From NCBI GenBank assembly GCA_017428055.1, contig JAFRRN010000098.1, positions 1 through 56,732 on the forward strand: DNA of 56,732 nt, in the 5' to 3' direction. The notes below the pieces were generated by a model that ran no database searches, was not told the origin of the DNA, and was given only the letters and a program-made list of their open reading frames with translations. The position numbers and the translations under genes were made by a program. Positions 32,103 to 56,539 of the stretch are shown piece after piece. The DNA comes from Prevotella sp. Its GTDB lineage: Bacteria; Bacteroidota; Bacteroidia; Bacteroidales; Bacteroidaceae. Position 1 is the first letter of the stretch; each line of letters begins with the position of its first letter.

Positions 32103-32110
32103 GATAAAAA

Positions 32111-32157
32111 GAAATGAGGAATTGCCAAGGGGGTGGGCAATTCCTCATTTCCTTTTT
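32111..32157. terminator. Bidirectional rho-independent terminator
   Basis: The perfect 16-base arms GAAATGAGGAATTGCC (32111-32126) and GGCAATTCCTCATTTC (32136-32151) enclose a nine-base loop. On the plus strand CTTTTTATT follows; on the minus strand TTTTTATC follows. It ends both the 27-residue ORF transcript and the S8 protease operon. Confidence 0.92.
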
Positions 32158-32168
32158 ATTCGTCCTCT

Positions 32169-32357
32169 TTATTCATCCCATACGCTCTCGCGATAGTCTG
32201 CGTCATCGGCATCGATGGTATCGTCAATGTCTTGGCTGCCCTTACCGAACTGGTCGGGTGTAGAGCCATCGCCGATACCGATGCCCATGACTTCCCCTGA
32301 CGAGAGGAAGTCATGGAGCATGGTTACTGGCTGGATATACTTTTTGTAAGTCTTCAT
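32169..32357 (-). CDS. Small acidic protein, last gene of the protease operon
   Basis: The 62-residue protein starts MKTYKKYIQPVTMLHDFLSS. There is no signal peptide. The N-terminal third is basic, the middle has MGIGIGDGSTPDQFGKG, and the end is strongly acidic, finishing ESVWDE. It is homologous by eye to the 65-residue protein at 40197-40394: both share YI-x-P, DF-[IL]-S, MG, G-[DE]-G-[ST]-T, QFG/QLG and VW-x-E. The start lies 11 bases after the stop of the third S8 protease gene. Short proteins of this style recur in Prevotella, but I know no function. Precursor-peptide, chaperone or regulatory roles are all open. Confidence 0.75.
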   Translation of the reverse strand: MKTYKKYIQPVTMLHDFLSSGEVMGIGIGDGSTPDQFGKGSQDIDDTIDADDADYRESVWDE

Positions 32358-32368
32358 TTTTACGGTCT

Positions 32369-35300
32369 TTATTTCATGATAACTGACTTGCCATTGTGGA
32401 GATACACGCCCTTGCGGGTCGGCTTGCCTTGCAGCTTGATACCCTCTACGGTGTACCATGCGCCGTCGTCTGTCACGGTGTCAAGAGCCTTGATGCCCGT
32501 TGCCTCTTCGCCATCCACGACGAGAGAGAATCCCTTGGCGTTGTTGCCTCCTAAAATGAGGAATGCCTTGTTGGCTGCCAAGTTCTTGCCCGAATAGCGG
32601 TAGAAGTTGATGTAGGTGTCGGACCCTCTTCCCAAGGTGTAGATGGTGCCGGGGGTTTCTGCCAGCACGGCAGCTACGGTCGTGTTCACCACTGAGCCGC
32701 TCAGGTAGCTGGACCTTGTCAATGGGTCGGCTTCTGCCACACGTGGGAATCGGTAGGCAGGACATTCTGCCGTATTGGAGTTGCCTTGGATGATGACACC
32801 CGTGTTGGCGGGAATCGTCTCATACAGGCGGGCGGCCTTCAGTTCCTTGCCGTTAATCTCATAGATGTAGAACACGCCGAGGATGTCGGGGTCGTATTCG
32901 TCGTAAGGAATCTCCACGGGATAGTCGAGGTAGAGCGTGGTCAAGCCCACGTCGCTTATCTTCACGTCGAAGAATTGGGTGGCAACGCCATTGAGTGTGA
33001 CAACGGCATCCTCTGCGTATGGAGCAGAAAGGGTCACTGTGCCTGTGAACGTGCCAAACTCGGAAGGATTGAACGTCACGGTGACGGTCTTGCCATCCTC
33101 TGCATCGGCAATGCTGATGCTCTCGGCATCGACGGTGTAAACGCTGTTCTCGTCTGCCAAAGTGACTGTAATGACATCACTGAGGTTCTCGGCTATCACG
33201 TCGAATGTCAAGCTGACGGGAGTACCCACCTCCGTGGTGAAGTCCAAAGCGTCGGGGTCAGCAATGATTTCAGGAGCGAGGGCGCGACCATTGAGAGACA
33301 CAGTAACTGGGTCTGCCTCTTGGCTTGTCAAGGTAATTGTGCCATTGAATGTTCCAGCGGTTGTAGGGCTAAAGGTCACATTTACATCCTTGCCAGTGCC
33401 ACTCTCTGCCTCTGTAACGGTGATGCTCGATGCGTCGATGCTATAAACGCCATTGGCATCGGTCAGTGTGGCGGTGATGTCGCCCTCCAACTCGTTGCCC
33501 TTCACGTTGAAAGTCTGTGTGACAGGAACACCAACGGGAGTCTCGAAGGAGAGGCTGGTGGGAGTGGCGATGATCTCGGCTGACTTCAGCGGGGTTTGGA
33601 ATGCAATCTCGTAGAGGTAGCCGCGAGCTTGGCTTGCAACAACCTTGTAAATCTTTGAAGCATCCAAATCTGTAATTGAAAGGTTTCCTGCTCCGCTTGT
33701 AGTACGGCTTGTACTCTTTGTGGCTGTCGTTGCTGAGGTTAATGTTCCATCACTATTTTCTGTGCATTCATAGACAGAGAATGTCGTAGGATAGGTCGTT
33801 GAAGTACTACGCTGAGAACAATAGAGCTTGACAGCAGTTGTGTTGGTCACATAGAAAGTGACTGTTTTGTTTGTAGTACTATTCCTACTATTAGTTCCAA
33901 CGGCCATAGCTGTCGCAGAAGTAAAGTAATTGCTGCTTCCGAGGTGCACATCATTAGCATTCCAAGTTGTGTTTCCACATTGATTTGATTGTGATACACT
34001 TGTCTCAATCCACTTTTGTGGGTTTCCACTATTGAATGTAGTACTTGTTGTCGAATATTTCGCTCCAACCACACCACCATATACAGGCAAGGTGAGCCAT
34101 GCTACCTTCTCGTCTTTGTATTCTTTGTATGTATACAGTTTGTTCACCAATGATGTGTTCCATCCCGCATCATCAATCGTCGCATATTTGGCGATGTTGA
34201 GGTAAGCGTCGCTGGCAGTACCTCCAGCTTCCTCTGCCACGCCATTAATGGTGACAATTACATCTTCAGCTCCTGCGCTTGACAATGTGATGGTGGCGTT
34301 GTGTGTACCCTCTGCCGTTGGTGCGTAGGTGATGGTGATGGTTACGCCATCGGTAGTCTGTGCTGCTGATGCTGCGATGGTGGTATTGTCTATGATATAT
34401 ACACCATTTGCATCAGTGAGTGTTGCCGTGATGTTGCCTGTAAGATTTGCACCGCGAACAACCACAGTCTCTGTGGCACTTTCTCCAACGGTTGCTGCCA
34501 TGGTCACTGCCTGTGGCGTAGCACCAATCTGTGGGTCATCGTCCAACAACTCCTCGATGCCGGCGAGAGCATCGATTTTTCCATTACCAAACATATTGGC
34601 ATTGGTGCCAGTGACATAGCTGTCTTGGATGGCGGTCTCTTGCATCAAGGTTTTCACATCTTCAATCGTCAATGTCGGGTCTACTTGCAGCCACAATGCC
34701 ACGATGCCACCCGCGCAAGGTGTTGCCATGGATGTTCCAGCGTTTACTCCTAATGGATTGTTTGCATCATAGCCTTTGATAAGAGATGTGGAAGTGGTAT
34801 TATTGGCAACATAGCCTTTGTTAAATGCTGCAATTACCATTTCACCAGGTGCAGTAATCACAGGGAGCTTTGTACCAAGTGGGCCATAGCCTGGAGCTTG
34901 ATAACCAGAAGAACTGGCAATATCGCCAATTGTTCCATCTACAGCGTAATAATATCCATCTTGGTTTTGTTCCGACACCCATCCTAACATTGTGGTATAC
35001 GAGCCAATGGGGATGACATACGGGTTGGTACCGTCGTCGCTGATGGAGCAGAGGCTATTACCTGCATCGAAGGTGTAGGTCGTGCCATTGTAAGTAGCGC
35101 TGCCACTGCTAAAATAGGTGTTGTTTGACCCCCAACTGTCGATGTCGCAAGTAACTCCGTTGTTTTTGGGATAGCAACTTAGACCGATTTTGTACCTACC
35201 TGTACGAGTTGATCCGCTTGTCGTGTATGCCTTTTCCCATAGATAGTACACATTGGTATATATATTATATTTTCCAGAATATTCATCTCTGTCAAAGAAA

Positions 35301-36778
35301 GCGCAAAGAAATCCGTCAGTCCCATCTTCTGAAAGAGACTCGAAATAGTTGGCTAAATTCGCATCATAGGTGATTTCATCGTCATCAACTTCCTCGACAC
35401 TGTATATTTTGTCACTTGTCATTTCATCCGATACCCATACAACCGTGTTGGTGGAGGTGTCAATGACATAGAACTTGGCAGCCAGTTCTACATCTGGTGT
35501 GCGGGCATAAGTTATGGTTTGACCATAGAGTGCAATGTTGTAGAGTGTATAGTTGCCAGATGTAGCCCCATCATAGTAGGTGAGATCTAAGAGCGACTGC
35601 GAGGGAGAGGCTTTTGTGGCACTCTTATAAAGATAGACTTGCTCCTCACCATCGTTGCCTGCTGCTTTCACGATGACCTTACCTGCTCCGCTCATGTATT
35701 GCTGGCAGATGTCTGTCAGGTAGCCGGTACCATCGTGTGGACCTACCTGTGAGCCAAGGCTGATGCTGATGACGCAGGGCTTGCCCACTTGGTCGGCATA
35801 TTGGCTGATTTTCTGTATACAAGCGGCAATGTTGGCATTTGAAAGTTGTCCCGCCAATCCGCAAAGCACGAGGTCGGCATTGGGAGCCATACCGCCGTAG
35901 GTACGTGAGCCATTGACGATGGAACTTGATTCAGTATCCCAATAGTTTGCCGTAACGGTAAAATTGGATCCGCCAGCGATACTACTGGTATGTGATCCGT
36001 GACTTGATCCCGTATAGTCATAAGTGAGAGCCTCGATGGCACTCTGTGTGTCATATTCCACAAGTTGTGCTGCATCGGTGTCGTAGACGATGGCTTTCTT
36101 GATGCGGGTATTGCCGTTGGCATCCTTGAACATCTGGTGGTCAAACTGGATGCCCGTGTCGATGATGCCGATGACCACGCCCGTGCCGTCGTAGGCTTGC
36201 AGCAACCCTGCTGCTTGTGCGTCGGCGGTGTAGTTGAGTACGTCGTCCACGTTGGTTGCCTCGCGTCCATAGTATGTCTCCTTCTTGAACATCGTTGCCA
36301 CGGACACCTTCGTCACGTTCTTCAGTGCTGCCACTTGTTCAAGGGCTTTCACGGGAACGTTGGCGGTCACGAGTTTGTCGAAGGTGGCTGTCACCTTCAC
36401 GCCCGCGATGCTCTCCAAGGCGGAGAGGTTGTTGTCGGTAAGTTTCACCCATACTTGCACTTTCTCTACACCCTCGCTGATGAACGGCTCGGCGAAGGTT
36501 GCGCCGTCGTCGCTGTCTTCATCTGCGGAGAGAGTGGTGGCAGTTCCGAATGTTCCAATTTGCTGTGTCTTCTGTTGGGCTTTTCCGCGTCTTGCCACGG
36601 GAGCCTTCAGGTTGTTCTTCTTGACGAACTGCTGCTTGGCAACTTTCGCCGTCGCCATCTTGCCATCGCGCTGGGCAATCACCATGCGTGTGCCAGCAGA
36701 CAACTTCTTCTCGTTCTGCGCAAAGGTGAACGTGAACGTTCCCAATAGCAGGGCAATAAAGAATAATAGCTTTTTCAT
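32369..36778 (-). CDS. Secreted S8 (subtilisin) protease, third copy
   Basis: This is a 1469-residue subtilase. A signal peptide (MKKLLFFIALLLGTFTFTFA) is followed by a propeptide-like region (about 100-165, VKVTATFDKLVTANVPVKAL). The catalytic domain has Asp207 in GIIDTGIQFDH, His260 in HGSHTSSIAGG and serine in NAGTSMATPCAGG. Three Ig-like anchor repeats follow (openings ATPQAVTM, ATPTSLSF and ADPDALDF). A discoidin-like or unidentified insert of about 200 residues lies between repeats one and two. The end is a GLTTLYLDYPVEIPYDEYD-type domain and the tail AWYTVEGIKLQGKPTRKG. It is likely surface-bound or secreted and degrades protein. It is downstream of the second protease by 46 bases and probably cotranscribed. 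Confidence 0.9.
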   Translation of the reverse strand: MKKLLFFIALLLGTFTFTFAQNEKKLSAGTRMVIAQRDGKMATAKVAKQQFVKKNNLKAPVARRGKAQQKTQQIGTFGTATTLSADEDSDDGATFAEPFISEGVEKVQVWVKLTDNNLSALESIAGVKVTATFDKLVTANVPVKALEQVAALKNVTKVSVATMFKKETYYGREATNVDDVLNYTADAQAAGLLQAYDGTGVVIGIIDTGIQFDHQMFKDANGNTRIKKAIVYDTDAAQLVEYDTQSAIEALTYDYTGSSHGSHTSSIAGGSNFTVTANYWDTESSSIVNGSRTYGGMAPNADLVLCGLAGQLSNANIAACIQKISQYADQVGKPCVISISLGSQVGPHDGTGYLTDICQQYMSGAGKVIVKAAGNDGEEQVYLYKSATKASPSQSLLDLTYYDGATSGNYTLYNIALYGQTITYARTPDVELAAKFYVIDTSTNTVVWVSDEMTSDKIYSVEEVDDDEITYDANLANYFESLSEDGTDGFLCAFFDRDEYSGKYNIYTNVYYLWEKAYTTSGSTRTGRYKIGLSCYPKNNGVTCDIDSWGSNNTYFSSGSATYNGTTYTFDAGNSLCSISDDGTNPYVIPIGSYTTMLGWVSEQNQDGYYYAVDGTIGDIASSSGYQAPGYGPLGTKLPVITAPGEMVIAAFNKGYVANNTTSTSLIKGYDANNPLGVNAGTSMATPCAGGIVALWLQVDPTLTIEDVKTLMQETAIQDSYVTGTNANMFGNGKIDALAGIEELLDDDPQIGATPQAVTMAATVGESATETVVVRGANLTGNITATLTDANGVYIIDNTTIAASAAQTTDGVTITITYAPTAEGTHNATITLSSAGAEDVIVTINGVAEEAGGTASDAYLNIAKYATIDDAGWNTSLVNKLYTYKEYKDEKVAWLTLPVYGGVVGAKYSTTSTTFNSGNPQKWIETSVSQSNQCGNTTWNANDVHLGSSNYFTSATAMAVGTNSRNSTTNKTVTFYVTNTTAVKLYCSQRSTSTTYPTTFSVYECTENSDGTLTSATTATKSTSRTTSGAGNLSITDLDASKIYKVVASQARGYLYEIAFQTPLKSAEIIATPTSLSFETPVGVPVTQTFNVKGNELEGDITATLTDANGVYSIDASSITVTEAESGTGKDVNVTFSPTTAGTFNGTITLTSQEADPVTVSLNGRALAPEIIADPDALDFTTEVGTPVSLTFDVIAENLSDVITVTLADENSVYTVDAESISIADAEDGKTVTVTFNPSEFGTFTGTVTLSAPYAEDAVVTLNGVATQFFDVKISDVGLTTLYLDYPVEIPYDEYDPDILGVFYIYEINGKELKAARLYETIPANTGVIIQGNSNTAECPAYRFPRVAEADPLTRSSYLSGSVVNTTVAAVLAETPGTIYTLGRGSDTYINFYRYSGKNLAANKAFLILGGNNAKGFSLVVDGEEATGIKALDTVTDDGAWYTVEGIKLQGKPTRKGVYLHNGKSVIMK

Positions 36779-36824
36779 ATTGATAATCGTTTAAAAATTC
36801 TTGTTTTACACCTTATTATATATA

Positions 36825-39800
36825 TTATTGGATGGTGATAGCCTTCCCCTGATGGATATACAGACCCTTTTGGGTTGGCTTGCCAGAGAGTTTCACACCT
36901 TGTAAGGTGTACCATGCGCCGTCAGTGGCGTTGGCATCAAGAGCCTTGATGCCTGTGGCGTCGCCACCGAATCCGAGGGTGAGAGCCTTTGCGCCGCTCG
37001 CACCCTCATAAATGAGGAATGCCTTGTAGGCAGCAAGTGTCTCGCCACTATACCGATAGAAGTTGATGTAGCTGTCAGAACCCCTGCCAAGAGTATAGAC
37101 GACACCGCTCGACTGCGCAGCCTCCAATGCTGCCGCCGGTGTAATGACCTCCACTGAGCCGGAGAGGATGCTTTCGTACTTCAACGCTGTCGCCTCGCTG
37201 ATTTTCGGGAAACGGTAGGTTCCCGTATTGCCTTGGATGATGACACCCGTATTGGCTGGGATGTCCTGGTTGAGGCGGGCGGCGCGTAGCTCCTTGCCGT
37301 TGATGCCCGTGATGTAATACACGCCGAGCAGGTCGGGGTCGTATGTCTGATAGGGAATCGACACAGGGAAGTCAAGATAGAGGGTCGTCAAGCCTACGCT
37401 GGTTATCTCCACGTCGAAATAGTCGGGATAAGCCTTCGTGGCGGTGGCGTTGAGTTGTACGTTGACACTCTCTGCGCGGTCGCTTGACAATGTGACTGTT
37501 CCCGTGTATGTGCCTTGTGCTGCCGGGGCAAAGGTCACGGTGACGGTTGCACCCTCCTCGGCATCGGCAATGCTGATGTTAGTGGGGTCTACGCTGAACA
37601 CGTCGCCGCCTTCAGTCACGGTGACAGTAACATTGCCAATGAGGTCTGCACCAAGCACGTCGAAAGTCTTGGTCGTGGTTTGCCCAGCTTCAATCACATC
37701 AAACACCAACTCTTCGGGATCTGCCATCAACTCGGGAGTCGTGGCTGTGCCAGAGAGGTTGACGGTGACGCTTGTGGCATTGGTGCTACTTAACGTAATG
37801 GTACCAGTGAACGTTCCTGCCGTCGTCGGGCTGAAGGTCACGGTGATGTCCTTGCCCGTCTCTGCCTGTGCCACGCTGACGCTTGTGGCATTGATGCTGT
37901 ACACGCCATTGGCATCGGTGAGCGTTGCCGTGATGTTGCCCTCAAGGTTCTCGCCCGTCACGTTGAAGGTTTGTGTCACGGGGATGCCCGTGGTGGTCTC
38001 AAACGTGAGGTCGGTGGGGTTGGCAGTGATGGTGGGGTTGTTGGCATTTTCCAAGATGTACTTGATGCCCGCCAAGGCATCAATCTTGCCCTGCCCGAAG
38101 TGGGAAGCGTAGGTGCCGGTGACATAGCTGTCCTTGATGGCAGTCTCTGCCATCACCTCCTTCACCTTGTCGGGGGTGAGTGTCGGGTCTACTTGCAGCC
38201 ACAGGGCAGTGATGCCAGCGGCGCAAGGCGTTGCCATGGACGTTCCCGACATGGCACCGAGCTTCTTGTTCGTGCCGTAGGCATAGTAATAGTTAGATGC
38301 ACTATAGCCACTGTTATATGCGGCAATGATGACTTCCCCTGGTGCGGTAATCCAAGGCTGCTTGAGTCCTGTAGGACCATATCCTTCTGCTTGGTAACTG
38401 GAGAACATGCTGACCTGTTCGTATGTGCCGTTGTTAGTCCAAGATTGGTTAGAGGCAGAATTAGTGCCTGCCCGCCAATACTTGCTCGAAACATACGAGC
38501 CGACGGAGATGACACTTGGGAACGATGCCTCGTCGCTGGCGGAGCTTTCGTTCGTGCCAGCTTTAAATGTGTTACCATTGACAGAGGCAGAGGATGAGGC
38601 AAAGTCTATATATACTGCGGGCCATGAGTCCACATAGCATGTGCCGCTCTTGGGATAGACACTCATTCCTATCTTATAGTTGGTGCTTACTGGCTTGAGG
38701 TAATATAAAATGGTTTCCACATACCATTTGTTATTGTGTTCATCCTTTTCCAAGTAGCCACAGAGATAACCGTAGTTGTCGCTGTCGTTGTTGTTGGCAG
38801 TGAAATAGGTACTCAACTTGGTTGTTCCATCGCTACCTGTGTCATTGACGCTGATTTCTGCGCCATAGAGTTCGATGTTACCCTCATTATCCACGAAATA
38901 GTCATCCGTGGTTATTTCGTTGGAAGTCCAAAGGATGGAGTTGCTGCTGGTATTCACCACGTAGTAGCGTACTGCAAGTTCCACGTTGGGTGTACGTGCG
39001 TAGCTAAGAGCAACTCCATAGTCCATGTTGTAACTGCTGCGCGTCTGGCTACTGAGTACGGTCATGGCTGGTGCCGATGCGGAGGCATTCTTGTAATGGT
39101 AAATGCCATCCTCGCCCTCGTTGCCAGATGCAAAGAGGATAATCTTGCCCGCTCCCGTATATTGTGCGCAGACATCTGCCATGTCACCCGTGCCGTCGTG
39201 TGGTCCGAAATGTCCGCCGAGACTCAGTGAGATGACGCAGGGCTTGCCCACTTGGTCGGCATAGTCGCTGATGTTCTTGATACAGGCGGAGATGTTGGCG
39301 TCGGTTAGCTCCTCGCCGAGGTCGCAAAGCACGAGGTCCGTGCCGGGTGCCATGCCACCGAACTTGGCATTGCTCACGGTGGAGTAACTGGTGCCCGTCG
39401 TATAGACGTATGCCGTGGCGGTGTAGTCGCTACCGCCGGCAATGCTGCTGGTGTGTGTGCCGTGGGTCTCGTCGGCGTAATAATACGATGAGCCAGTATA
39501 TTCCTGCAATTCCTCGGCATCGGTATTATAGACGTATTTTTTCTTGATACGTCCCGAGAACATTTGATGACCGAAGTCTATGCCCGTGTCAATGATACCC
39601 AGCACCACTCCAGTTCCGTTGTATGCTTGCAGTAACCCTGCCGCCTGTGCGTCGGAGGAGTAGTTGAGCACGTCGTCCACGTTCGTCATCACGCGGCTGC
39701 GGTAGGTTTTCTTCTTCAGCTTCTTGGCGACAGACACCTTGGTGACATTGCCCAATGCTGCCACTTTCTCAATGGCATTCACGGGTACGTTGGCAGTTAC

Positions 39801-40169
39801 CTTGCCGTCAAACTTGGCTTGGATCTTCACGCCGAGTGCCTCGAGGGCAGCGTAGTTGTCATTGGTCATGCTGATCCAGCATTGCACCATCTTCACGCCA
39901 TTGACGGTCGATGGTGTGGCGAATGGAAAACCGTCGCCCTCATCGTCGTCCTCAGCTGTTGTCTCGGTGGCACCGGGTGCTTTCCAAGGAGCGTTTCTCT
40001 TGTTTTTCTTCATCTGGGTCATCTCCTTCTTGGCGGCATCGAGTGACAACTTGCCGTCGCGGTCGGCGATGACGATGCGCGTGCTTGGTGAAATCTTTGT
40101 CGCTTTCTGCGCGTAGGAGACGAGGAACGTTCCTGCGAGGAAGGCAATCAGTAATAATAGCTTTTTCAT
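36825..40169 (-). CDS. Secreted S8 (subtilisin) protease, second copy
   Basis: The chosen start gives MKKLLLLIAFLAGTFLVSYAQ, matching the paralogue downstream; an ATG five codons earlier is possible. The protein has 1114 residues. The propeptide-like region contains LGVKIQAKFDGKVTANVPVN. The triad is Asp194 in GIIDTGIDFGH, His236 in THGTHTSSIAGG and serine in MSGTSMATPCAAG. Only two Ig-like repeats follow (ANPTDLTF, ADPEELVF), then the GLTTLYLDFPVSIPYQTYD domain and the tail AWYTLQGVKLSGKPTQKG. It is closely related to its two neighbours and best explained by tandem duplication. It follows the small acidic protein gene by 27 bases. Confidence 0.9.
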   Translation of the reverse strand: MKKLLLLIAFLAGTFLVSYAQKATKISPSTRIVIADRDGKLSLDAAKKEMTQMKKNKRNAPWKAPGATETTAEDDDEGDGFPFATPSTVNGVKMVQCWISMTNDNYAALEALGVKIQAKFDGKVTANVPVNAIEKVAALGNVTKVSVAKKLKKKTYRSRVMTNVDDVLNYSSDAQAAGLLQAYNGTGVVLGIIDTGIDFGHQMFSGRIKKKYVYNTDAEELQEYTGSSYYYADETHGTHTSSIAGGSDYTATAYVYTTGTSYSTVSNAKFGGMAPGTDLVLCDLGEELTDANISACIKNISDYADQVGKPCVISLSLGGHFGPHDGTGDMADVCAQYTGAGKIILFASGNEGEDGIYHYKNASASAPAMTVLSSQTRSSYNMDYGVALSYARTPNVELAVRYYVVNTSSNSILWTSNEITTDDYFVDNEGNIELYGAEISVNDTGSDGTTKLSTYFTANNNDSDNYGYLCGYLEKDEHNNKWYVETILYYLKPVSTNYKIGMSVYPKSGTCYVDSWPAVYIDFASSSASVNGNTFKAGTNESSASDEASFPSVISVGSYVSSKYWRAGTNSASNQSWTNNGTYEQVSMFSSYQAEGYGPTGLKQPWITAPGEVIIAAYNSGYSASNYYYAYGTNKKLGAMSGTSMATPCAAGITALWLQVDPTLTPDKVKEVMAETAIKDSYVTGTYASHFGQGKIDALAGIKYILENANNPTITANPTDLTFETTTGIPVTQTFNVTGENLEGNITATLTDANGVYSINATSVSVAQAETGKDITVTFSPTTAGTFTGTITLSSTNATSVTVNLSGTATTPELMADPEELVFDVIEAGQTTTKTFDVLGADLIGNVTVTVTEGGDVFSVDPTNISIADAEEGATVTVTFAPAAQGTYTGTVTLSSDRAESVNVQLNATATKAYPDYFDVEITSVGLTTLYLDFPVSIPYQTYDPDLLGVYYITGINGKELRAARLNQDIPANTGVIIQGNTGTYRFPKISEATALKYESILSGSVEVITPAAALEAAQSSGVVYTLGRGSDSYINFYRYSGETLAAYKAFLIYEGASGAKALTLGFGGDATGIKALDANATDGAWYTLQGVKLSGKPTQKGLYIHQGKAITIQ

Positions 40170-40196
40170 ATTCAATAGTTTCAAAGATGAGAACTC

Positions 40197-40394
40197 TTAT
40201 TCACTCCACACGTTGACTTTGGCATTGGTGGGGGTGGGGTCCATGGGGTCAAAGGGTCCTGGCTCGTCGGTGTCATGACCCAACTGTTCTTGGGTAGTTC
40301 CCTCTCCAAGTTCCCATCCCATCAGATAGTGTCTTGAAATGAAATCGTTAACCTTGATTCTTGGCTTGATGTAGCCTTTCACAATCTTTTCCAT
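40197..40394 (-). CDS. Small acidic protein between proteases
   Basis: This 65-residue protein starts MEKIVKGYIKPRIKVNDFIS, contains LMGWELGEGTTQEQLGHD and ends NAKVNVWSE, with a proline- and acid-rich stretch before the end. It has no signal peptide and no cysteine. It is a diverged paralogue of the 62-residue protein at the operon end. It lies 31 bases after the first protease gene and 27 before the second, so it is cotranscribed with both. Its position rules out being a cis propeptide, since each protease carries its own. The function is unknown. Confidence 0.75.
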   Translation of the reverse strand: MEKIVKGYIKPRIKVNDFISRHYLMGWELGEGTTQEQLGHDTDEPGPFDPMDPTPTNAKVNVWSE

Positions 40395-40425
40395 AAATGT
40401 TGCTTTTGTTATTCTATTATTTATT

Positions 40426-43400
40426 TTATTGAATGATTACCGTATTGCCGTTGTGAATATACATTCCCTTGCGGACGGGCTTGCGAGAAAGCTTCACGCC
40501 CTGCACGGTGTACCAAGAGCCCTCCTCCGCATCGGCATTGATGGTGTCGATGCCCGTGGCATCGCCCTCAAAGCCTAAGGTAAGCGACTTCGCACCGCTT
40601 GCTCCCTCGTAGATGAGGAAAGCCTTGTATGCGGAAAGCTTGCTGCCGCTATACCTATAGAAGTTGATGTAGGAGTCAGACCCCCTGCCGAGGGTGTAGA
40701 TGATACCGCTTGACTGCGCTGCCTCCAAAGCTGCCGCAGGGGTGATGTCCTCCACGGAGCCGGAGAGGATGCTGTTGTACTTCAATGGCGTTGCCTCATC
40801 GATTTTTGGGAATACGTATGTTCCCTTGTTTCCTTGGATGATGACTCCCGTGTGTGCGGGGATGTCCTTGTTGAGGCGAGCGGCACGTAGCTCCTTGCCG
40901 TTGATGCCCGTGATGTAATATACGCCGAGCAAGTCGGGATCGTATTCCTGGTATGGGATTTTCACGGGGAAGTCGAGGTAGAGCGTTGTCAGTCCTACGT
41001 TGCTGATGACCACGTCAAACGACGCGGGGTAGGCTTTCGTGGCTGTGGCGTTGAGCTGCACGTTGACGCTCTCGGCTTGGTCGCTGCTCAAGGTGACAGT
41101 CCCTGTGTAGGTGCCTTGTTCTTGTGGGGCGAAGGTCACGGTGATGGTGGCACCCTCCTCGGCATCGGCCTTGCTGATGGTGGCGGCATCGATACTGAAC
41201 ACGTCGCTGCCCTCCGTCACGGTGGCTGTCACGTTGCCAAGCAGGTTGGTGCCCAAGACGGTGAATGTCGCGGTTGTGGACTGTCCCTGCCCTGCCTCAA
41301 TCTCGTCGAAGGTCAATTCGTCGGGGTCTGCAATCAGCTCGGGAGCCACGGCGGTACCTGCGAGTTGCACGGTGACGCTCTCGGCATAGAGTGTGGAAAG
41401 GGTGACGCTACCCGTGTATGTGCCAACCGCCGTGGGGCTGAAAGTCACGGTGAACGTTGCTTCGTCTTCTGCCGCTGACGCACTGACGGAGGCCGGTGTG
41501 ATGGCAAACACGCCGTTATCGTCTGTGAGCGTGGCGGTCACTTCGCCCGATAGGTCTGCTCCCAATACGCTGAAAGTCTTGCTGTCTGTCTCGGTGACGA
41601 TGGCGTTGAATGCCAGGCTTTCGGGATCAGCGATGATCTCGGGCGGCGTAGCCGTACCCGTCAGGTTGACGGTGACGCTTTCCGCATTGCTGCTGGCGAG
41701 GGTGATGGTGCCCGTGAATGTGCCATTGGCGGTTGGGCTGAAGGTCACGGTGATGTCCTTGCCGTCCTCTGCGTCGGCAACGCTCACGCTTGTTGCGTCG
41801 ATGCTGAACACGCCGTTGTCGTCGGCGAGGGTGGCAGTGATGTCGCTCTCAAGGTATGCGCCCTTCACGTTGAACGTGCCGGAAGCCGTCTTGCCCGTCG
41901 TGGCAGCCAGCGTGAGCGATGTCGGGTTGGCTATAATGGTCGGGTCTTCGTCTTCATCGATGGTGACGACAGTCTTCTTATAAAGATAAATGCTGGAGGC
42001 AGAGGTACTCAGACTGAACCCATTGCTGTAGTAGACATAGTAGGATCTCATCATCCCACTATAGTATAGGTAATTATTGGTGCCGTTCCAAGTCCAATTC
42101 GTCGAAGTCGTGGAGATGGCCAAAGAGCGAGTCATCGTACCTGATGCATAAATATAATAGTTCCCATTCTTGAACGTATATCCGCTTGCCGTCGTCCAGA
42201 CGGATGTGGCATCTACGTCATCGGACTGGATATAGGGCGCAGAGGAGATGTTGTCGGCAGACTTCACGGTCACTGCGTCGGCGGCGACGGTTGTCCCGCT
42301 ATGTCCGAGGGCATATCCTGCACCCGCCGTGTTGCGACTTACAATCAAGTACTCATTGCCAGCAGTAATGGCATTAGTCAATTGATAAATAGTAGCTGTT
42401 GTCTGCTTGGGTTTGGAGATACCCGTCAGGCTTACCGTGACGGTCTCAGCACCCGCGCTGGTGAGTGTGAGCGTGCCTTCGTATGTACCCGTTGCCGTCG
42501 GCGCGTTGAAGGTGACGGTGATGTCCTTGCCGTCATCGCTCAGAGCATCGGCATTGGCGATGGAGGTCGTGTTAATAGAGAAGCCTGTGCCACTGACTGC
42601 CACGGTGACATTTTCCGTGAGGAACTTGCCCGAAACATTGAGTGTCTGCGTGTCGGTCTCGCCCTTGATGGCCTCGAAAGTCATACTCTCCTGGTCGGCG
42701 ATGATAGTAGGTGTTGCTGCCTCGGCAGTACCCGTCAGGCTGATGGTCACGCTCTCGGCATTGCTGCTCGTGAGAGTGATGGTGCCCGTGGTGTTGCCTG
42801 CCGCTGTGGGCGACCATGTGATGGTCAATGTGGCGGTTGCCGAGCCATTGGTTTGTGTGATGGTGGTCTTGTCAACAGAGAATGCGCTGTCGCCCGCCTT
42901 TGTCACAGTGATGTTCCCTTCCAGGCTGATGCCCGTCACTGTGACTTCCTTGGTGTAGGTCATCGTGGCATAGCCCGTAAACGCAAGTTCCGTAGGGGTG
43001 GCGGTGATGGTTGGTCCGCCCGTCACGCCGAGAATATACTGGAGGCCCTTGATGGCGTTGATCTTGCCGTGTGTGCCGAAGGTCTTGGCACCGTGTGCGC
43101 CGCTGCCCGTGCCGTTGGTCCACTCGTCGGTGTCCCATGTCGCTGCCATCACCTCCTTGATATAGTCGGGGGAAGGGGTCTTGCCCACCTCCACGCAAGC
43201 CTGCAGCCATTGGGCAATGATGCCCGAGACGCACGGCGTTGCCATCGAGGTGCCCTCCATGGCGGCGTATGGGTATGTGGTATTGTTGACCACAAGGTCT
43301 TCAATGTAGTCGTCCGACCAATAACTGTATTCATCGACAGATGCCGTGTGGTAGTGGTTGATGGCAGCCACGATGCGGGCGCCGGGGGCGTTGATGTGCG

Positions 43401-45264
43401 GCAGGGCGGTGCCGAGAGGGCCGTACCCAGCTGTCTGCCAACTGGAGAAATAGGCATGGTCGCCGACATTGGGGTAACTACTGCTCCAATCATGTGCCGT
43501 TCCCGCATAGTCGGTGATGGAGTTTTTCGTCACGTAGGCACCCACGGAAATCACATTGCTGTAACAAGCATTGTCGCTCACCGAGCATTCATCGTTGCCC
43601 TTGCAATAGTTGTAGCTGCTGCTATTGAGGTTGAGGTCGGTGCCAAACCATGAATAAGAGTTCTCCCACATGTCGATGATGGTGGATGAGTTGCTGCTTG
43701 TAGGATAAACGGACACGCAGAACATATAGTCGCTATTGTAAACGCCGTCGCCATCACTGTCGGCATAGCTTGTCGAAAGCATGATAGGGGCGTAAATCTG
43801 CCAATAGTATTTGCTGTTGTTGGTGTCTTGGGTCCTGACAAGACGTATCTTTCCTGCGTCGCCATACATGTTGGAATAGCTCGACGATGACTTGAAGTAT
43901 TGCGCCAAGTCCGTAGACCCCGTCATGTCGATGGTGGTACTGGCACTGTATGCCGAACTGGAATAGACGATTTCACCCGTATTGACATTCACCACGTGGA
44001 ACTTCAACGATGTCGCCACGTTAGCCGTGCGGGCGTATGCCGTGATGGTTGGCATGAGCATTTCCACATTGCCGTCGGCATTGGAGAAGGAACGCTGCAC
44101 GTTGACAATCATCGGTTTGGAGCTTGTGGATGTGCCGCTGGCGTACATGCCGCCGCCGTTAGACGTGCCCATTTCCACAAAAGCGTCGGCACGCATACCG
44201 TCGTTAGAGGCGGCATAGACGATGATGTGGTTGTCGCCGGCATATTGGTTGACGATGCTGGCGATGGTTCCCGTGCCGTCGTGCGGTCCCACTTGTGAGC
44301 CAAGGCTCAATGAGATGACGCAGGGTTTGCCCACTTGGTCGGCATAGTTGCAGATGTTTTGGATGGCGGTTCCGATGGAGGTGGTGTACAGGCTGCTGAG
44401 ACCGGCAATCACGAGGTTTGCCTCGGGGGCCATGCCCCCATACGTGGCGTTGGCGTGGTCGTCGGTGACGGTCACCGTCGTGCCGTTGACGATGACGCTC
44501 GACCCGCCTGCCGTGGAAGATGTATGTGTGCCGTGGTCGCCTGTGTTGGTGTCGTAGGTCAAGTTGTTGATCTGTGTCGTGGAGGAGTAGGTGGTCAGGG
44601 ATGTGCTGTTGCTGCCACTAAGCGTGTAGGCTCTCACGATGCGCGTGTTTCCACTCTTGTCCTTAAAGGCGAGGTGTTGGAAGTCGATGCCCGTGTCTAT
44701 GATGCCGAGGATGACATTCTTGCCCGTGTATTGCTTGGTGAGGCCGAGGGCTTGCGCCGCCGCCGAGTTGGAGATGGCGTCTCCCGCCTGTGTCACGCTG
44801 CGTTGCAGGTCGTTGGTGGGTTGGAGTATCTCTGCCACTTCGATGCGCGTCACGTTGTCGAGTGCCGCCACTTCCTCGATCTTATCCACGGGGATGAGGG
44901 TGGTGGCGAGATCCTTGAACTTCGCCTCGAAGATGACGCCAAGGCTCTCCAATCCTGAGAAGTCGTTGTTTTTGACGGCGATGAACGCGGAGATCATCTT
45001 CACGCCATTCACCATCTCTGCCTCGGCGATGGGGCGGGTGTTATACAATTTGAGGCCAGGCTCTTTGCTCAAGTCGATGGGTGAGTCTGGTGTGGTGATG
45101 AGGTTGATTTCCTCTCTGTTGTTGATTTGGGGAAGTTGGGTTTCACCAAGTTGTTCCGACAGGAACATCAGGGTGGAAGCCGAATACTTGTTGGTGATGT
45201 CTCCTTGTGCGAATGTAACCGTGCAAGTCACCATCATGATGATGATCAGTAATCCTCTTCTCAT
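40426..45264 (-). CDS. Secreted S8 (subtilisin) protease, first copy
   Basis: At 1612 residues this is the largest protease of the operon, with a signal peptide (GLLIIIMMVTCTVTFAQ). A propeptide-like region (about 85-145) precedes the catalytic domain: Asp190 in GIIDTGIDFQH, His244 in DHGTHTSSTAGG, Ser673 in MEGTSMATPCVSG. Five Ig-like repeats follow (ATPTELAF, ADQESMTF, ANPTSLTL, ADPESLAF, ADPDELTF). Between the second and third is an insert of about 150 residues with a beta-rich, Tyr/Ser-rich composition. The end has the GLTTLYLDFPVKIPYQEYD domain and the tail SWYTVQGVKLSRKPVRKG. The start has a good GGAG site. Its promoter lies in the intergenic region shared with the pectinase gene. Confidence 0.9.
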   Translation of the reverse strand: MRRGLLIIIMMVTCTVTFAQGDITNKYSASTLMFLSEQLGETQLPQINNREEINLITTPDSPIDLSKEPGLKLYNTRPIAEAEMVNGVKMISAFIAVKNNDFSGLESLGVIFEAKFKDLATTLIPVDKIEEVAALDNVTRIEVAEILQPTNDLQRSVTQAGDAISNSAAAQALGLTKQYTGKNVILGIIDTGIDFQHLAFKDKSGNTRIVRAYTLSGSNSTSLTTYSSTTQINNLTYDTNTGDHGTHTSSTAGGSSVIVNGTTVTVTDDHANATYGGMAPEANLVIAGLSSLYTTSIGTAIQNICNYADQVGKPCVISLSLGSQVGPHDGTGTIASIVNQYAGDNHIIVYAASNDGMRADAFVEMGTSNGGGMYASGTSTSSKPMIVNVQRSFSNADGNVEMLMPTITAYARTANVATSLKFHVVNVNTGEIVYSSSAYSASTTIDMTGSTDLAQYFKSSSSYSNMYGDAGKIRLVRTQDTNNSKYYWQIYAPIMLSTSYADSDGDGVYNSDYMFCVSVYPTSSNSSTIIDMWENSYSWFGTDLNLNSSSYNYCKGNDECSVSDNACYSNVISVGAYVTKNSITDYAGTAHDWSSSYPNVGDHAYFSSWQTAGYGPLGTALPHINAPGARIVAAINHYHTASVDEYSYWSDDYIEDLVVNNTTYPYAAMEGTSMATPCVSGIIAQWLQACVEVGKTPSPDYIKEVMAATWDTDEWTNGTGSGAHGAKTFGTHGKINAIKGLQYILGVTGGPTITATPTELAFTGYATMTYTKEVTVTGISLEGNITVTKAGDSAFSVDKTTITQTNGSATATLTITWSPTAAGNTTGTITLTSSNAESVTISLTGTAEAATPTIIADQESMTFEAIKGETDTQTLNVSGKFLTENVTVAVSGTGFSINTTSIANADALSDDGKDITVTFNAPTATGTYEGTLTLTSAGAETVTVSLTGISKPKQTTATIYQLTNAITAGNEYLIVSRNTAGAGYALGHSGTTVAADAVTVKSADNISSAPYIQSDDVDATSVWTTASGYTFKNGNYYIYASGTMTRSLAISTTSTNWTWNGTNNYLYYSGMMRSYYVYYSNGFSLSTSASSIYLYKKTVVTIDEDEDPTIIANPTSLTLAATTGKTASGTFNVKGAYLESDITATLADDNGVFSIDATSVSVADAEDGKDITVTFSPTANGTFTGTITLASSNAESVTVNLTGTATPPEIIADPESLAFNAIVTETDSKTFSVLGADLSGEVTATLTDDNGVFAITPASVSASAAEDEATFTVTFSPTAVGTYTGSVTLSTLYAESVTVQLAGTAVAPELIADPDELTFDEIEAGQGQSTTATFTVLGTNLLGNVTATVTEGSDVFSIDAATISKADAEEGATITVTFAPQEQGTYTGTVTLSSDQAESVNVQLNATATKAYPASFDVVISNVGLTTLYLDFPVKIPYQEYDPDLLGVYYITGINGKELRAARLNKDIPAHTGVIIQGNKGTYVFPKIDEATPLKYNSILSGSVEDITPAAALEAAQSSGIIYTLGRGSDSYINFYRYSGSKLSAYKAFLIYEGASGAKSLTLGFEGDATGIDTINADAEEGSWYTVQGVKLSRKPVRKGMYIHNGNTVIIQ

Positions 45265-49757: not shown

Positions 49758-49816
49758 GTTTCTTGAAATAATTGTTGTCTGACACAATAAAAGGGCGGAT
49801 ATTGCGTTATTCATTC

Positions 49817-50755
49817 GTGTTTAAACGCAAAATAATCATACTGCTTGCCCTGTTCCTGTCGGCGATGGGAAAGGCGCAATACGATGTCTCCTTCTCACAT
49901 TACTTCGATATGGAGCCATCGTTCAATCCCGCGTCAGTAGGTAAGGAGGCGGTCTTGAATGTTACTGCCGCGTATGCGATTGACCTCGCCGGATTTGAGC
50001 ACAACCCCCAAACTATGTATTTCGCCGGTGACATTCCCTTTTATGCGCTCAAGACTTATCATGGCGTAGGGGCACAGTTGATGAGTGACAAGCTCGGACT
50101 GTTTGACCACCAGCGGCTTGCCGTGCAGTATGCCATTCGCCACAAGCTGCTGGGTGGGCAACTCGCTTATGGCTTACAGGTAGGGTTGCTCAGCGAGAAG
50201 TTTGACGGTTCGAAGGCGGAGTTTCCCGAAGAGGGTACCGACCTGGCATTCACCAATTCGGAGGTTGACGGTACAGCTCTTGACATCGACTTTGGCCTGT
50301 ATTACACCCATCGCAATTGGTATGTTGGCGTCTCCGCCAAGCACCTGACGGCTCCCCTTGTCCATCTTGGTGAGACCAACGAGTTGCAGATAGACCGGAC
50401 ATATTATTTGACGGGTGGATACAATATTCGCTTTCGTTCTCCGTTCTTAAAGGTGAAGACATCCTTCTTGGTTCGTTCCGACTTGGTGGCTCTCCGTGGC
50501 GACGTGACGGGGCGGTTGGTTTATACCAATGACACGAAGATGATGTACGCCGGCTTGGCCTACAGTCCTACAAACTCGGTGACATTCCTCATAGGTGGAA
50601 GTTTCCAAGGGATTGTGTTGGGCTATAGCTATGAGGTGTATACCTCTGCCATCAATCCTGGCAACGGTAGCCATGAGCTGTTTCTTGGTTACCAAATGGA
50701 CATTAACTTGGTGAAAAAGGGGCGCAATCTTCATAAGAGCGTGCGCATCCTTTAA
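49817..50755 (+). CDS. porP: PorP/SprF family type IX secretion protein
   Basis: This outer-membrane protein of the PorP/SprF family has about 312 residues. The segment FKRKIIILLALFLSAMGKAQ is a signal peptide, followed by YDVSFSHYFDMEPSFNPASVGKE, the family hallmark. The body shows beta-barrel-like strands (YGLQVGLLSEKFDG, LDIDFGLYYTHRNWYVGVSAKHL, FLIGGSFQGIVLGYSYEVY). No ATG is available; GTG at 49817 gives a normal signal peptide, while TTG at 49802 or 49772 would lengthen it. PorP anchors substrates or the motor complex at the outer membrane. It is the first gene of the por cluster. Confidence 0.85.
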   Translation: MFKRKIIILLALFLSAMGKAQYDVSFSHYFDMEPSFNPASVGKEAVLNVTAAYAIDLAGFEHNPQTMYFAGDIPFYALKTYHGVGAQLMSDKLGLFDHQRLAVQYAIRHKLLGGQLAYGLQVGLLSEKFDGSKAEFPEEGTDLAFTNSEVDGTALDIDFGLYYTHRNWYVGVSAKHLTAPLVHLGETNELQIDRTYYLTGGYNIRFRSPFLKVKTSFLVRSDLVALRGDVTGRLVYTNDTKMMYAGLAYSPTNSVTFLIGGSFQGIVLGYSYEVYTSAINPGNGSHELFLGYQMDINLVKKGRNLHKSVRIL

Positions 50756-50802
50756 AAGTTGAATAATTAAAAAAGTTGGAAATATAATAATCAAATGAAT
50801 CA

Positions 50803-52317
50803 ATGAAGATGAAAGAAGGAAAATTGAAACAAATGATACCTGAAAAGTGGAAGGCAGCCAGCACGGCGATTCTTACCTTTTCGCTTTTTTACCTTTTCAC
50901 CTTTTCCTTCATGGGATGCATGGGCAGCAAGTCGGCATCGTCGTCCGGACGTGGGGGCGAGGTGGTCGGCATAGGCGGCAAGGCATTCTCCGAACCCACT
51001 CCCTACGGAATGACACGCATTAATCGGGGTTGGCTTCGCATGGGTATGGAGGAGCAAGACAGCCTATGGGGCAAACAAGCGCCCGTGAAGGACGTGTCGG
51101 TGGATGGCTTCTGGATGGACGAGACAGAGATCACCAATTCGCAATACAAGCAGTTTGTCAACTGGGTGCGTGATAGTATTCTCCGCACACGTCTCGCAGA
51201 TCCGTCGTATGGTGGTGATGAGACTTATATGATTACCGAAGACAAGAACGGCGACCCCATCGAGCCGCACCTCAATTGGAAGAAACAACTGCCACGTAAG
51301 CCCAACGAGGATGAACAACGTGCCATGGAAAGCCTTTATAAGGTTAATCCCGTGACGGGCGAGAAGTTGCTCGACTCACGGCAGTTGAATTATCGTTATG
51401 AGGTGTATGACTACACCACGGCAGCCCTCCGTCGCAACCGTTTGCAGGCAGAGGAGCGCAACCTGAATACCGATGTCGTGGTGGATCCTAACGAGGTGGT
51501 GATGATTTCAAAGGATACCGCTTATATCGATGACGAGGGACGTATCGTGAGAGAGACCATCAATCGCCCATTGACTGGCGAATGGGACTTCCTCAATACC
51601 TATATTGTCAATATCTATCCCGATACGACATGCTGGGTGAACGATTTCCAAAACTCAGATAACGAGACCTATCTGCGTAACTATTACTCCAACCCTGCCT
51701 ATAACGACTATCCCGTGGTGGGCGTGACATGGGAACAGGCCAATGCGTTCTGTGCTTGGCGCACGGACTACCTGTTGAAAGGTCTTGGCCCAGAGGCTCG
51801 TTACGTGCAACGCTATCGTCTGCCTACCGAGGCGGAATGGGAATATGCCGCCCGTGGCAAGGACCAGAATGAGTTTCCTTGGGACAATCCAAGTGTGAAG
51901 AGTGGCGATGGTTGCTTCTATGCCAACTTCAAGCCCGACCGTGGCAATTACACCAAGGACGGCAATCTCATCACGAGCAAGGTGGGTATCTATTCCGCCA
52001 ATTCCAATGGTTTGTTTGACATGGCGGGCAACGTGGCGGAATGGACGAGTACCATCTATACCGAAGCGGGTGTGGATGCCATGAACGACCTCAACCCACA
52101 ATTGGAATATAAGGCGGCAAAGGAAGACCCATACCGATTGAAGAAAAAGAGTGTCCGCGGCGGGTCGTGGAAAGACCCGGAGAGTTATATCCGCAGCGCG
52201 TGGCGCACATGGGAATACCAAAACCAGCCCCGCTCCTATATTGGCTTCCGTTGTGTGAGAAGCCTTGCTAACACCACAAGTACGAAACAGAAACAAACCA
52301 AGAGCAAGAAAAAATGA
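50803..52317 (+). CDS. porK: Type IX secretion lipoprotein PorK/GldK
   Basis: This 504-residue lipoprotein carries a hydrophobic stretch ending FSFMGC (cysteine 39). The mature protein has a formylglycine-generating-enzyme (SUMF1-like) fold: DGFWMDETEITNSQYKQFV, YPVVGVTWEQANAFCAWR, YRLPTEAEWEYAARG, GLFDMAGNVAEWTS and VRGGSWKDPESY. PorK forms the periplasmic ring with PorN under the outer membrane. The stop overlaps the start of the next gene by four bases. Confidence 0.93.
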   Translation: MKMKEGKLKQMIPEKWKAASTAILTFSLFYLFTFSFMGCMGSKSASSSGRGGEVVGIGGKAFSEPTPYGMTRINRGWLRMGMEEQDSLWGKQAPVKDVSVDGFWMDETEITNSQYKQFVNWVRDSILRTRLADPSYGGDETYMITEDKNGDPIEPHLNWKKQLPRKPNEDEQRAMESLYKVNPVTGEKLLDSRQLNYRYEVYDYTTAALRRNRLQAEERNLNTDVVVDPNEVVMISKDTAYIDDEGRIVRETINRPLTGEWDFLNTYIVNIYPDTTCWVNDFQNSDNETYLRNYYSNPAYNDYPVVGVTWEQANAFCAWRTDYLLKGLGPEARYVQRYRLPTEAEWEYAARGKDQNEFPWDNPSVKSGDGCFYANFKPDRGNYTKDGNLITSKVGIYSANSNGLFDMAGNVAEWTSTIYTEAGVDAMNDLNPQLEYKAAKEDPYRLKKKSVRGGSWKDPESYIRSAWRTWEYQNQPRSYIGFRCVRSLANTTSTKQKQTKSKKK

Positions 52318-53204
52318 CCAAGTATAGCAAGTTCAATGTTGTCTACCGTCTACAGAAGTGGATGGATAGCGTTCCAGGGCAAACATTTCTCAACTATGCA
52401 TATAGTTGGGGTGCCTCTATCGTGATTTTGGGTACGCTCTTCAAGCTCACCCACTTACCTGGGGCAAACTTCTTCCTTTTCCTTGGAATGGGAACGGAGG
52501 TGTTTGTGTTCTTCATTTCAGCATTCGACCGGCCGTTTGACAAGACGGCAGACGGAAGGAATTTGCCTACGCATCTTGGCGTGGAGGGCATCGAGGGCGC
52601 AGACATACCTGTCGATGAATTGACCGAGGGCGAGACACCCGCTGTGGCGGCTGCCGTGGGCAGTGGTGGCGGTGGCATCATCGGAGGCGGTGGTGGCACA
52701 ATCATCATCGGCGGCGGTGGCAGTGGTGATGTTGTAGATGGTGCTGGCCATGTAGGTGACATAGATGAAGTAGGTCATGTAGGTGGAGCTGGAACGGTAG
52801 GTGCTGTTGGTGGCGGGGCTTGGATTTCGCAGCAACAGGAGACCACTCCCGACATGGCAGAGGCACAGGGCAACTACGTGGAAGAACTCAAGAAACTTAC
52901 CGAGATGCTGGGCAAGGTGTCGGAGCAAAGCGAGCGTCTCACCCGCGACAGCGAGGAGATGGAGAACCTCAACCGTACCCTTACGGGTATCTGCAAGGTT
53001 TATGAGATGCAACTCAAGGGTGCCAGCCAGCAGATTGGCACCATTGACCAGATCAATGAGCAGAGCCGTAAGATGGCAGGGCAGATTGCCGAACTCAATA
53101 AGATTTATGCCCGTATGATTGAGGCAATGACCGTCAATATGCCGAAGACGGGGCTTCAAAGGGCAGATGTGACGAATGGGATGGTTGGGGAAGATGAGCT
53201 TTGA
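52314..53204 (+). CDS. porL: Type IX secretion motor protein PorL/GldL
   Basis: This 296-residue inner-membrane protein has two helices at about 33-72 (WGASIVILGTLFKL, ANFFLFLGMGTEVFVFFI). Glu62 in GMGTEVF corresponds by context to the proton-conducting glutamate of GldL. The cytoplasmic part is mostly a coiled coil (about 185-285). Between the membrane part and the coiled coil is a Gly-rich segment (about 114-169) with GGGG runs and repeated GHVGD/GHVGG units, longer than I expect for the family. It forms the proton-driven motor with PorM. Confidence 0.92.
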   Translation: MTKYSKFNVVYRLQKWMDSVPGQTFLNYAYSWGASIVILGTLFKLTHLPGANFFLFLGMGTEVFVFFISAFDRPFDKTADGRNLPTHLGVEGIEGADIPVDELTEGETPAVAAAVGSGGGGIIGGGGGTIIIGGGGSGDVVDGAGHVGDIDEVGHVGGAGTVGAVGGGAWISQQQETTPDMAEAQGNYVEELKKLTEMLGKVSEQSERLTRDSEEMENLNRTLTGICKVYEMQLKGASQQIGTIDQINEQSRKMAGQIAELNKIYARMIEAMTVNMPKTGLQRADVTNGMVGEDEL

Positions 53205-53242
53205 CACGCTTTTAGTTCATTGACCTATCAAACAGTATTATT

Positions 53243-54796: not shown

Positions 54797-54834
54797 TAAT
54801 ATAATAATGTAGGAATAATTGAAATAAGATAGTG

Positions 54835-55900: not shown

Positions 55901-56539
55901 ATGTGTAGGAGGATTCTTTTTTCGTTGTGTTTGGTAATAGTTGCCCTTACTGCTAATGCCCAAATGCGGCTGGGTGTGGAAGGTGGAGTGGACTTGGCGC
56001 AATTGTCATTCAAGAATGACGTGTTTAATTCGACCAATCGTATGGGATGGTTCGTGGGACCTACCTTGAATATCCCCATTCCTCTTCCAGGCATGAGCAT
56101 CGACTTGTCTGCTTTGTATAGCCAACGAGAGTCAAAGATAGACGTGTATTATAGTCCGGTCGGCAGTAGTGATACGCGACAAGTGAACACCTTGAAAACA
56201 AAGCAAATCATTGTACCTTTGTCGTTGAGATATTCTGTGGATTTGGGTACGAATGCGAGCGTGTTTGGGTTTGCCGGTCCTCAATTGGGCTTTGCCGTGG
56301 GAGACAAGGAACAAAACCTGACCGATGACAAAGAGGCGATATGGCGTTTGAAAAACTCCGCCTTCAGCGTGAATGTGGGTGCTGGTCTTCTCCTCGGTCC
56401 ATTGCAATTGTCTGCTAATTACAATGTAGGAGTAGGCAAGACGGGTGAGGTGACATGGAAAGATGCCACACAAGCCGTTGCCGACGGATGGAATGGCAAT
56501 TACAATTCCTGGCAAATCAGTGCCGCTTATTACTTTTAG
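55901..56539 (+). CDS. Outer-membrane beta-barrel protein (PorT-like)
   Basis: The 212-residue protein has a signal peptide (SLCLVIVALTANAQ) and begins RLGVEGGVDLAQLSF, then alternating amphipathic strands to a terminal aromatic YYF typical of barrel-assembly signals. It fits the OMP_b-brl_2/PorT-type family of small barrels. It follows porN by 10 bases. It may be a por-associated outer-membrane component, but PorT itself cannot be confirmed. Confidence 0.7.
   Translation: MCRRILFSLCLVIVALTANAQMRLGVEGGVDLAQLSFKNDVFNSTNRMGWFVGPTLNIPIPLPGMSIDLSALYSQRESKIDVYYSPVGSSDTRQVNTLKTKQIIVPLSLRYSVDLGTNASVFGFAGPQLGFAVGDKEQNLTDDKEAIWRLKNSAFSVNVGAGLLLGPLQLSANYNVGVGKTGEVTWKDATQAVADGWNGNYNSWQISAAYYF

Follow-up and report, generated by a model that had tools for sequence, protein, structure and literature searches.

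The window analyzed here is a 56,732-nt stretch of Prevotella sp. DNA (positions 1 to 56,732 of contig JAFRRN010000098.1, assembly GCA_017428055.1; contig C92 of a 4.2-Mb assembly, labeled genome G000 below), whose minus strand carries an operon encoding S8 protease 1, a 65-aa protein, S8 protease 2, S8 protease 3, and a 62-aa protein. The two small proteins are probably precursors of ribosomally synthesized and post-translationally modified peptides (RiPPs) that resemble the linear polyphosphorylated peptides (LPPs). They would be co-expressed with cargo of the type IX secretion system (T9SS) and matured in trans by a single trio of proteins, consisting of a PqqD-type RiPP recognition element (RRE), an HprK-like kinase, and a protease that resembles signal peptidase I (SpI). 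The family to which they belong is nameless in Pfam and NCBIfam and thereby gains a testable role as RiPP-like precursors. If the proposal is correct, a RiPP class that has been called restricted to Bacillota extends to Bacteroidota, and peptide maturation is tied to type IX secretion.

The operon and its small proteins

The five-gene order described in the first-pass annotation was confirmed together with its short gaps. The intergenic distances are 31 nt (protease 1 to the 65-aa gene), 46 nt (protease 2 to protease 3), and 11 nt (protease 3 to the 62-aa gene), and the stop codon of the 65-aa gene is followed by protease 2 after 27 nt when counted to the ATG at 40169, which was taken as its start, or after 12 nt when counted to the TTG at which the mechanical ORF (1119 aa) begins. 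The strong terminator noted at the operon end is a 21-bp hairpin of -29.6 kcal/mol. Likewise, the assignment of the large genes holds: Pfam Peptidase_S8 was found in all three proteases, and inspection of their translations by eye reveals the catalytic motifs GIIDTG, [TS]HG[ST]H, and GTSMATP, Sec-type N-termini, and a C-terminal tail. An identical operon order is present in a Prevotella metagenome-assembled genome from water buffalo omasum (L012, JAFYZV010000192.1), where the contig end cuts the first protease.

The small proteins were described as divergent paralogs, which is borne out by 34% identity when aligned and by five common motifs (YIxP, DF[IL]S, MG, G[DE]G[ST]T, and VWxE). Neither of them shows a signal peptide on inspection by eye, and Pfam and NCBIfam scans of both returned no family match. 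Compared with L012, the dN/dS values of the small ORFs are 0.36 and 0.18 (0.11-0.17 for the operon proteases), so they are evolving as proteins under purifying selection.

The family has the anatomy of a leader followed by a core. In an alignment of 58 rows, some of which had been chosen by a Y..P pattern, the Y and P of a YxxP motif are invariant, the preceding residues are K-rich, hydrophobic residues fall mostly at +5, +7, and +16, and small residues are commonest at +19/+20. The leader consensus can be written as KKxYxxPx[I/T]x[V/I] followed by [M/L][L/M]xx[G/S], after which comes a variable, acidic core (acidic fraction after Y+20 of 0.27) ending in W[D/E], with a W within the last 12 residues in 57 of the 58 rows. 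A first, narrow profile detected the family in just 2/60 genomes; a widened profile located it in 93 of the 120 genus genomes searched (E<=0.01), with 36 copies in G000 itself.

Linkage to genes for T9SS cargo

The genes in front of the small-protein genes are marked by a short C-terminal domain (CTD) of the T9SS type, not by protease identity. A profile built from seven small-protein sequences gave 14 places in G000 at E<=10, all of which start 7-33 nt past the stop of a long ORF with an end like [YF]xLxG...GxYIxxGKKxxxK; the nine matches that were new to this profile were all linked, two of them being near-identical copies. A profile of the tail itself yields 136 matches in G000 at E<=1, and 34 of the 36 matches to the widest small-protein profile (E<=1e-3) begin 11-164 nt 3' of a same-strand tail match, the exceptions being C2:16405 and C14:16702. 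This last count is partly circular because the 58-row profile includes rows gathered behind tails, and the out-of-sample counts given below are cleaner. Viewed from the tails, a small ORF lies behind 31 of 70 examined matches (21/30 in a first set and 10/40 in a further one; 70 of the first 75 matches were covered, the 61 weaker ones were left out, and the pattern false positives L122, L132, and L172 had been removed beforehand), which means that many short CTDs lack such a partner gene.

The first-pass annotation had expected S8 proteases or secreted proteins as recurrent neighbors, and only the second part of that expectation stands. G000 contains nine S8 genes, five of which end in a short tail; four of these five have a small gene directly behind them, and behind the fifth comes the gene of the next protease. 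Those four genes would suit small proteins that act specifically on S8 enzymes as inhibitor, chaperone, or substrate. This idea is nevertheless extremely improbable, as 30 of the 34 linked matches follow genes other than these nine, and no member of the family was observed after the four S8 genes that lack a short tail (for the copy on contig C51, 290 nt of contig are left). Linkage to S8 genes alone was accordingly rejected. A Pfam scan of nine linked cargo proteins returned one S8 protease, two leucine-rich repeat (LRR) proteins, one weak phosphatase-like match below the cut-off, and no match for five.

Three side observations concern such 3' ends. Near-identical YxxP peptides are encoded behind two distinct 1.8-kaa cargo genes (L060:5805-5996 and L061:482-673), apparently because the 3' end was duplicated recently. 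On C51, a short-CTD-like stretch lies in another frame past the stop of the longer-tail S8 gene (L014:8893-9015). At L206 (G000:C32:16310-16615), a small gene follows a short-CTD stretch in an open frame of 58 aa, possibly a broken cargo gene.

Random neighbors would have refuted the annotation's functional unit, but homologs in other genomes do not have them, though solo copies exist. Taking the best locus of each of 29 other genomes of the genus, 28 were linked to a tail (26/27 out-of-sample), and in the sole exception, G126, the small gene is located just 5' of a short-CTD gene. At the order level, 7 of 295 genomes match the small-protein profile at E<=0.001, G000 included. In a second family (f111), 14 of 15 loci were linked, with the tails judged by eye. 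None of the five matches in the remaining lineages has a short-CTD tail upstream. A YxxP ORF is found there 16-28 nt 5' of a lipoprotein-like gene (once in G377 and twice in G174), and the first match in G364 lies 7 nt behind the gene of a protein with a different tail. The second G364 match (L216:7448-8557) is a YxxP leader-like N-terminus in frame with a lipoprotein-like ORF, which could be a fusion, an overlap, or a sequencing error. Lipoprotein-like genes also lie 3' of the unlinked G330 copy in f111 (78 nt) and of a G004 copy missed by the profile (18 nt), and three solo copies in G000 precede genes for proteins with Sec-type N-termini by 192-356 nt. Because copies without a tail precede lipoprotein-like or Sec-type genes, the association with surface or exported proteins may extend beyond T9SS cargo.

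The PqqD, HprK-like, and signal-peptidase-like trio

In G377, the YxxP gene lies next to capsule-export genes, in a cluster that also encodes an ABC transporter, NTP_transf_5, and two proteins of which one is HprK-related and the other S24/signal-peptidase-like. The genomes of the genus were therefore searched for PqqD, which is present in 101 of 120. The genes for the HprK-like, S24/SpI-like, and PqqD proteins are adjacent at 15 of the 16 PqqD loci that were fetched, with an opposite-strand PqqD in G126. G000 carries one trio, on contig C58 (locus L231), away from its dispersed precursor genes. Its PqqD protein matches PF05402 over the cut-off (4e-13), and residues of likely importance are conserved throughout the trio: an Asn and an Asp of the RRE are invariant in 19/19 sequences (their equivalence to N33 and D70 of LppB was judged by position), the Ser of GxSMxP and the His of HR[I/V] in the SpI-like protease are invariant in 18/18, and the P-loop GTGKST of the HprK-like kinase is invariant in 16 rows.

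An ABC gene in the cluster was confirmed by scan in G377, G004, and G045, and found by BLAST in G055, and by eye in G230, G330, G018, and G174. PF14907 was confirmed in G377 and G004, the same two genomes in which a YxxP ORF is located near the machinery. The loci without an adjacent ABC gene, 13 of the 16, share a gene for an exported protein of ~150-190 aa (Table 1), whose G000 copy has no Pfam or NCBIfam match.

A lasso-peptide pathway in the strict sense is a further candidate for the small proteins. RREs recognize the leaders of lasso peptides as well as LPPs through YxxP (PMC12710340, PMC13381572; like the other RiPP and T9SS papers cited below, drawn on in excerpt), and the G000 PqqD weakly matches lasso_PqqD_Strm, below the cut-off. 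The B2 peptidase and the Asn-synthase-like cyclase of lasso pathways were, by eye and without a family scan, not recognized among the genes listed at the 16 PqqD loci, where a signal-peptidase-like protease is present instead; on this inspection, a true lasso pathway is judged very unlikely.

Joint presence and absence

In 57 high-quality genomes of the genus, 46 have both PqqD and the small proteins, 4 have PqqD only, 0 have the small proteins only, and 7 have neither (Fisher p 1.2e-6); the genomes without a match to the HprK profile are precisely these last 7. Over all 120 genomes the association has a p value of 0.0016. When 40 of the high-quality genomes are placed on a SprA tree, the seven negatives require five label changes, at least 4 of which are forced by supported branches, and the negatives are thus not one clade; the label 'both' likewise requires five changes, at least three of them forced. 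Outside the genus, HprK was found in 5/6 genomes with small-protein matches and in 1/8 without (p 0.026), the eight having been chosen by hand from 288. A separate observation concerns G010, which is 99% complete and has no SprA_N match yet contains PqqD, HprK, and three weak small-protein matches, which suggests a genome that is T9SS-less or misassembled.

These distributions bear on two further explanations. In the first, the small proteins would serve T9SS cargo in the cytoplasm as escorts or regulators, for example by preventing the short CTD from folding ahead of Sec export, and the trio would be unrelated. Such a role would fit acidic proteins without a visible signal peptide that are tightly coupled to the 3' end of short-CTD genes. 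It would predict neither an invariant YxxP nor joint absence with the trio, and it sits poorly with a small gene behind fewer than half of the examined tails and with YxxP genes that precede lipoprotein-like genes in other lineages; we consider it unlikely. According to the second, the small gene and the gene end that encodes the CTD form a 3' cassette that moves by recombination, in which the small gene is a hitch-hiker with a role unrelated to the cargo. The varied cargo domains and the near-identical peptides behind two different large cargo genes on C97 and C63 are what a cassette would produce, while purifying selection on both window peptides and their family's repeated joint absence with the trio indicate a function, so that the hitch-hiker idea has only a slim chance of being the whole story. 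A moving cassette is compatible with RiPP-like precursors as an explanation for the spread of the linkage.

The proposed pathway

The same core parts make up the published LPP pathway, and the small proteins are therefore proposed to be LPP-like precursors. Each would consist of an N-terminal leader and a variable acidic core, the PqqD-type RRE would bind the YxxP of the leader, the HprK-like kinase would phosphorylate the core, and the Ser-His signal-peptidase-like protease would remove the leader. The single trio would serve all precursors of G000 in trans. Since the precursor gene is located at the 3' end of a short-CTD cargo gene, peptide and surface protein would be made together. The first-pass annotation had offered a modified peptide precursor, an escort, or a regulator as possible functions, and the YxxP leader and the trio of RRE, kinase, and peptidase favor the precursor.

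Export of the peptide and a role in the envelope or at the surface, next to the cargo, are further steps that we infer. An acidic, possibly phosphorylated core that is paired with a surface protein invites the speculation that it acts in the envelope, for instance by decorating or tethering the cargo. In its fullest form, every participating T9SS surface protein would be co-made with its own phosphorylated RiPP, which the trio matures and which then reaches the envelope, where it decorates this same cargo or acts on it. This extended version is doubtful; if true, it would describe a modular two-part surface system with more than 30 uses in G000 that couples secretion to peptide modification in Bacteroidota.

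Several results weigh against the precursor proposal. The assignments of two trio members are weak: the HprK-like kinase scores 1.9e-6 with TIGR04249 and 1.6e-4 with TIGR04352, both far below the cut-off, and the SpI-like protease scores 0.0011 with Peptidase_S24 and 0.0012 with sigpep_I_bact, also under the cut-off. Because these curated scores are so low, both names depend on motifs, genomic context, and a weak sequence likeness. By sequence, the G000 PqqD matches no solved structure, as phmmer returned only three matches, all at chance level. Neither an MsbA-like exporter nor an NTP transferase is found beside the G000 trio, and with no exporter there, export is left unexplained. The window pair lacks the A-x-S-like stretch seen in many relatives, the full LPP leader consensus (YxxPxVLxHQxIxFETxxS) is unmet beyond YxxP and a similar hydrophobic spacing, and the solo copies described above have no upstream tail. 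With regard to co-occurrence, four high-quality genomes have PqqD only (G004, G018, G045, and G137, the last counted as small-negative by elimination), although in G004 a YxxP ORF missed by the profile adjoins PqqD. The 63 genomes below the quality cut show no association (38 with both, 9 with the small proteins only, 13 with PqqD only, and 3 with neither; p = 1). The nine genomes among them that have small-protein matches and lack PqqD are all 56-88% complete, two of them have HprK, and incompleteness alone would lead to 9.8 such genomes.

Further features of the window and the genome

The S8 operon adjoins, on the opposite strand, the T9SS core operon porPKLMN (Table 1), which together with SprA on contig C84 shows that the genome has a T9SS; the system encoded by porPKLMN is presumed to be the export machine for the cargo. 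It is followed at 55901-56539 by a gene for an outer membrane beta-barrel protein with a weak PorT/SprT match. Three further long plus-strand ORFs of the window have short-CTD-like ends (19771-27570, 16555-18501, and 45866-49675, the last with pectinesterase and pectate lyase matches), and the small-protein profile has zero matches behind them. Elsewhere in G000, several exported proteins (L016, L055, and L060) bear dockerin-like C-termini (DLNGDGSVNITDIVTLTNLVLNQ and similar), and some cargo N-termini appear cohesin-like by eye.

Table 1. Features of the operon, its surroundings, and the trio locus (window positions unless a locus is given).
Feature	Position	Strand	Basis or remark
S8 protease 1, 1612 aa, T9SS cargo with short CTD	40426..45264	-	Pfam, tail profile
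Short CTD of protease 1 (TGI..WYTVQG..KGMYIHNG)	40429..40572	-	tail profile; motifs as in PMC11969387
YxxP small protein 1, 65 aa, candidate RiPP-like precursor	40197..40394	-	
Proposed leader of small protein 1 (KGYIKPRIKV...LMG)	40320..40394	-	family leader positions; end and cleavage site putative
S8 protease 2, 1114 aa, short CTD; protease 3 directly 3'	36825..40169	-	Pfam, tail profile
Short CTD of protease 2	36828..36971	-	tail profile
S8 protease 3, 1469 aa, T9SS cargo with short CTD	32369..36778	-	Pfam, tail profile
Short CTD of protease 3	32372..32515	-	tail profile
YxxP small protein 2, 62 aa, candidate RiPP-like precursor	32169..32357	-	
Proposed leader of small protein 2 (KKYIQPVTML...VMG)	32283..32357	-	family leader positions; end putative
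Intrinsic terminator at operon end	32106..32156	-	21-bp hairpin, -29.6 kcal/mol, z -7.4
T9SS core operon porP-porK-porL-porM-porN	49772..55890	+	adjoins S8 operon on opposite strand
Exported-protein gene next to G000 trio	L231:11328-11906	-	recurrent neighbor

Comparison with known systems

The tails of the cargo resemble the short CTD of Prevotella intermedia, for which a PT/GI cleavage site, motifs B, D, and E, and a length of 43-55 aa have been described (PMC11969387). The TGI cleavage motif, motif B (Y..G), motif D (GxYI), and motif E (a basic end) all recur here within ~45-50 aa. The words 'downstream', 'operon', and 'small protein' do not occur in the main text of that paper. A survey of Bacteroidales RiPPs (PMC10352776) has, in its excerpted text, no occurrence of 'type IX', 'S24', or 'HprK', and a survey of rumen lasso peptides reports clusters in Firmicutes only (PMC7533575). 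No paper that joins T9SS cargo with RRE-dependent peptides was found among titles and abstract openings, with preprints and most subscription papers outside the scope of the search.

Paeninodin-type lasso pathways, as presented in PMC13381572, share an RRE, an HprK-like kinase, an NTP transferase, and a [Y/W]xxP leader with the system described here, and differ from it in their B2 and C enzymes, which were by eye unrecognized beside the trio.

The closest counterpart is the LPP pathway, a RiPP class called restricted to Bacillota and of unknown role in a 2026 paper (PMC13381572). There, a kinase phosphorylates Ser3 of the core, an SpI-like peptidase cleaves the precursor with the help of the RRE, YxxP is required for RRE binding, and the clusters are often found in capsule loci. 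The Prevotella system has in common with it the YxxP leader, the discrete RRE, the HprK-like kinase, the SpI-like peptidase (with Ser and His here), and the combination of a conserved leader with a variable core. In some other Bacteroidales genomes the likeness extends to an ABC exporter and a PF14907 NTP transferase, and in G377 to a position beside capsule-export genes. It differs in its occurrence in Bacteroidota, in the reduction of the G000 machinery to one stripped trio that is accompanied by more than 30 dispersed precursor genes outside a biosynthetic cluster, and in the placement of those precursors behind genes for T9SS cargo.

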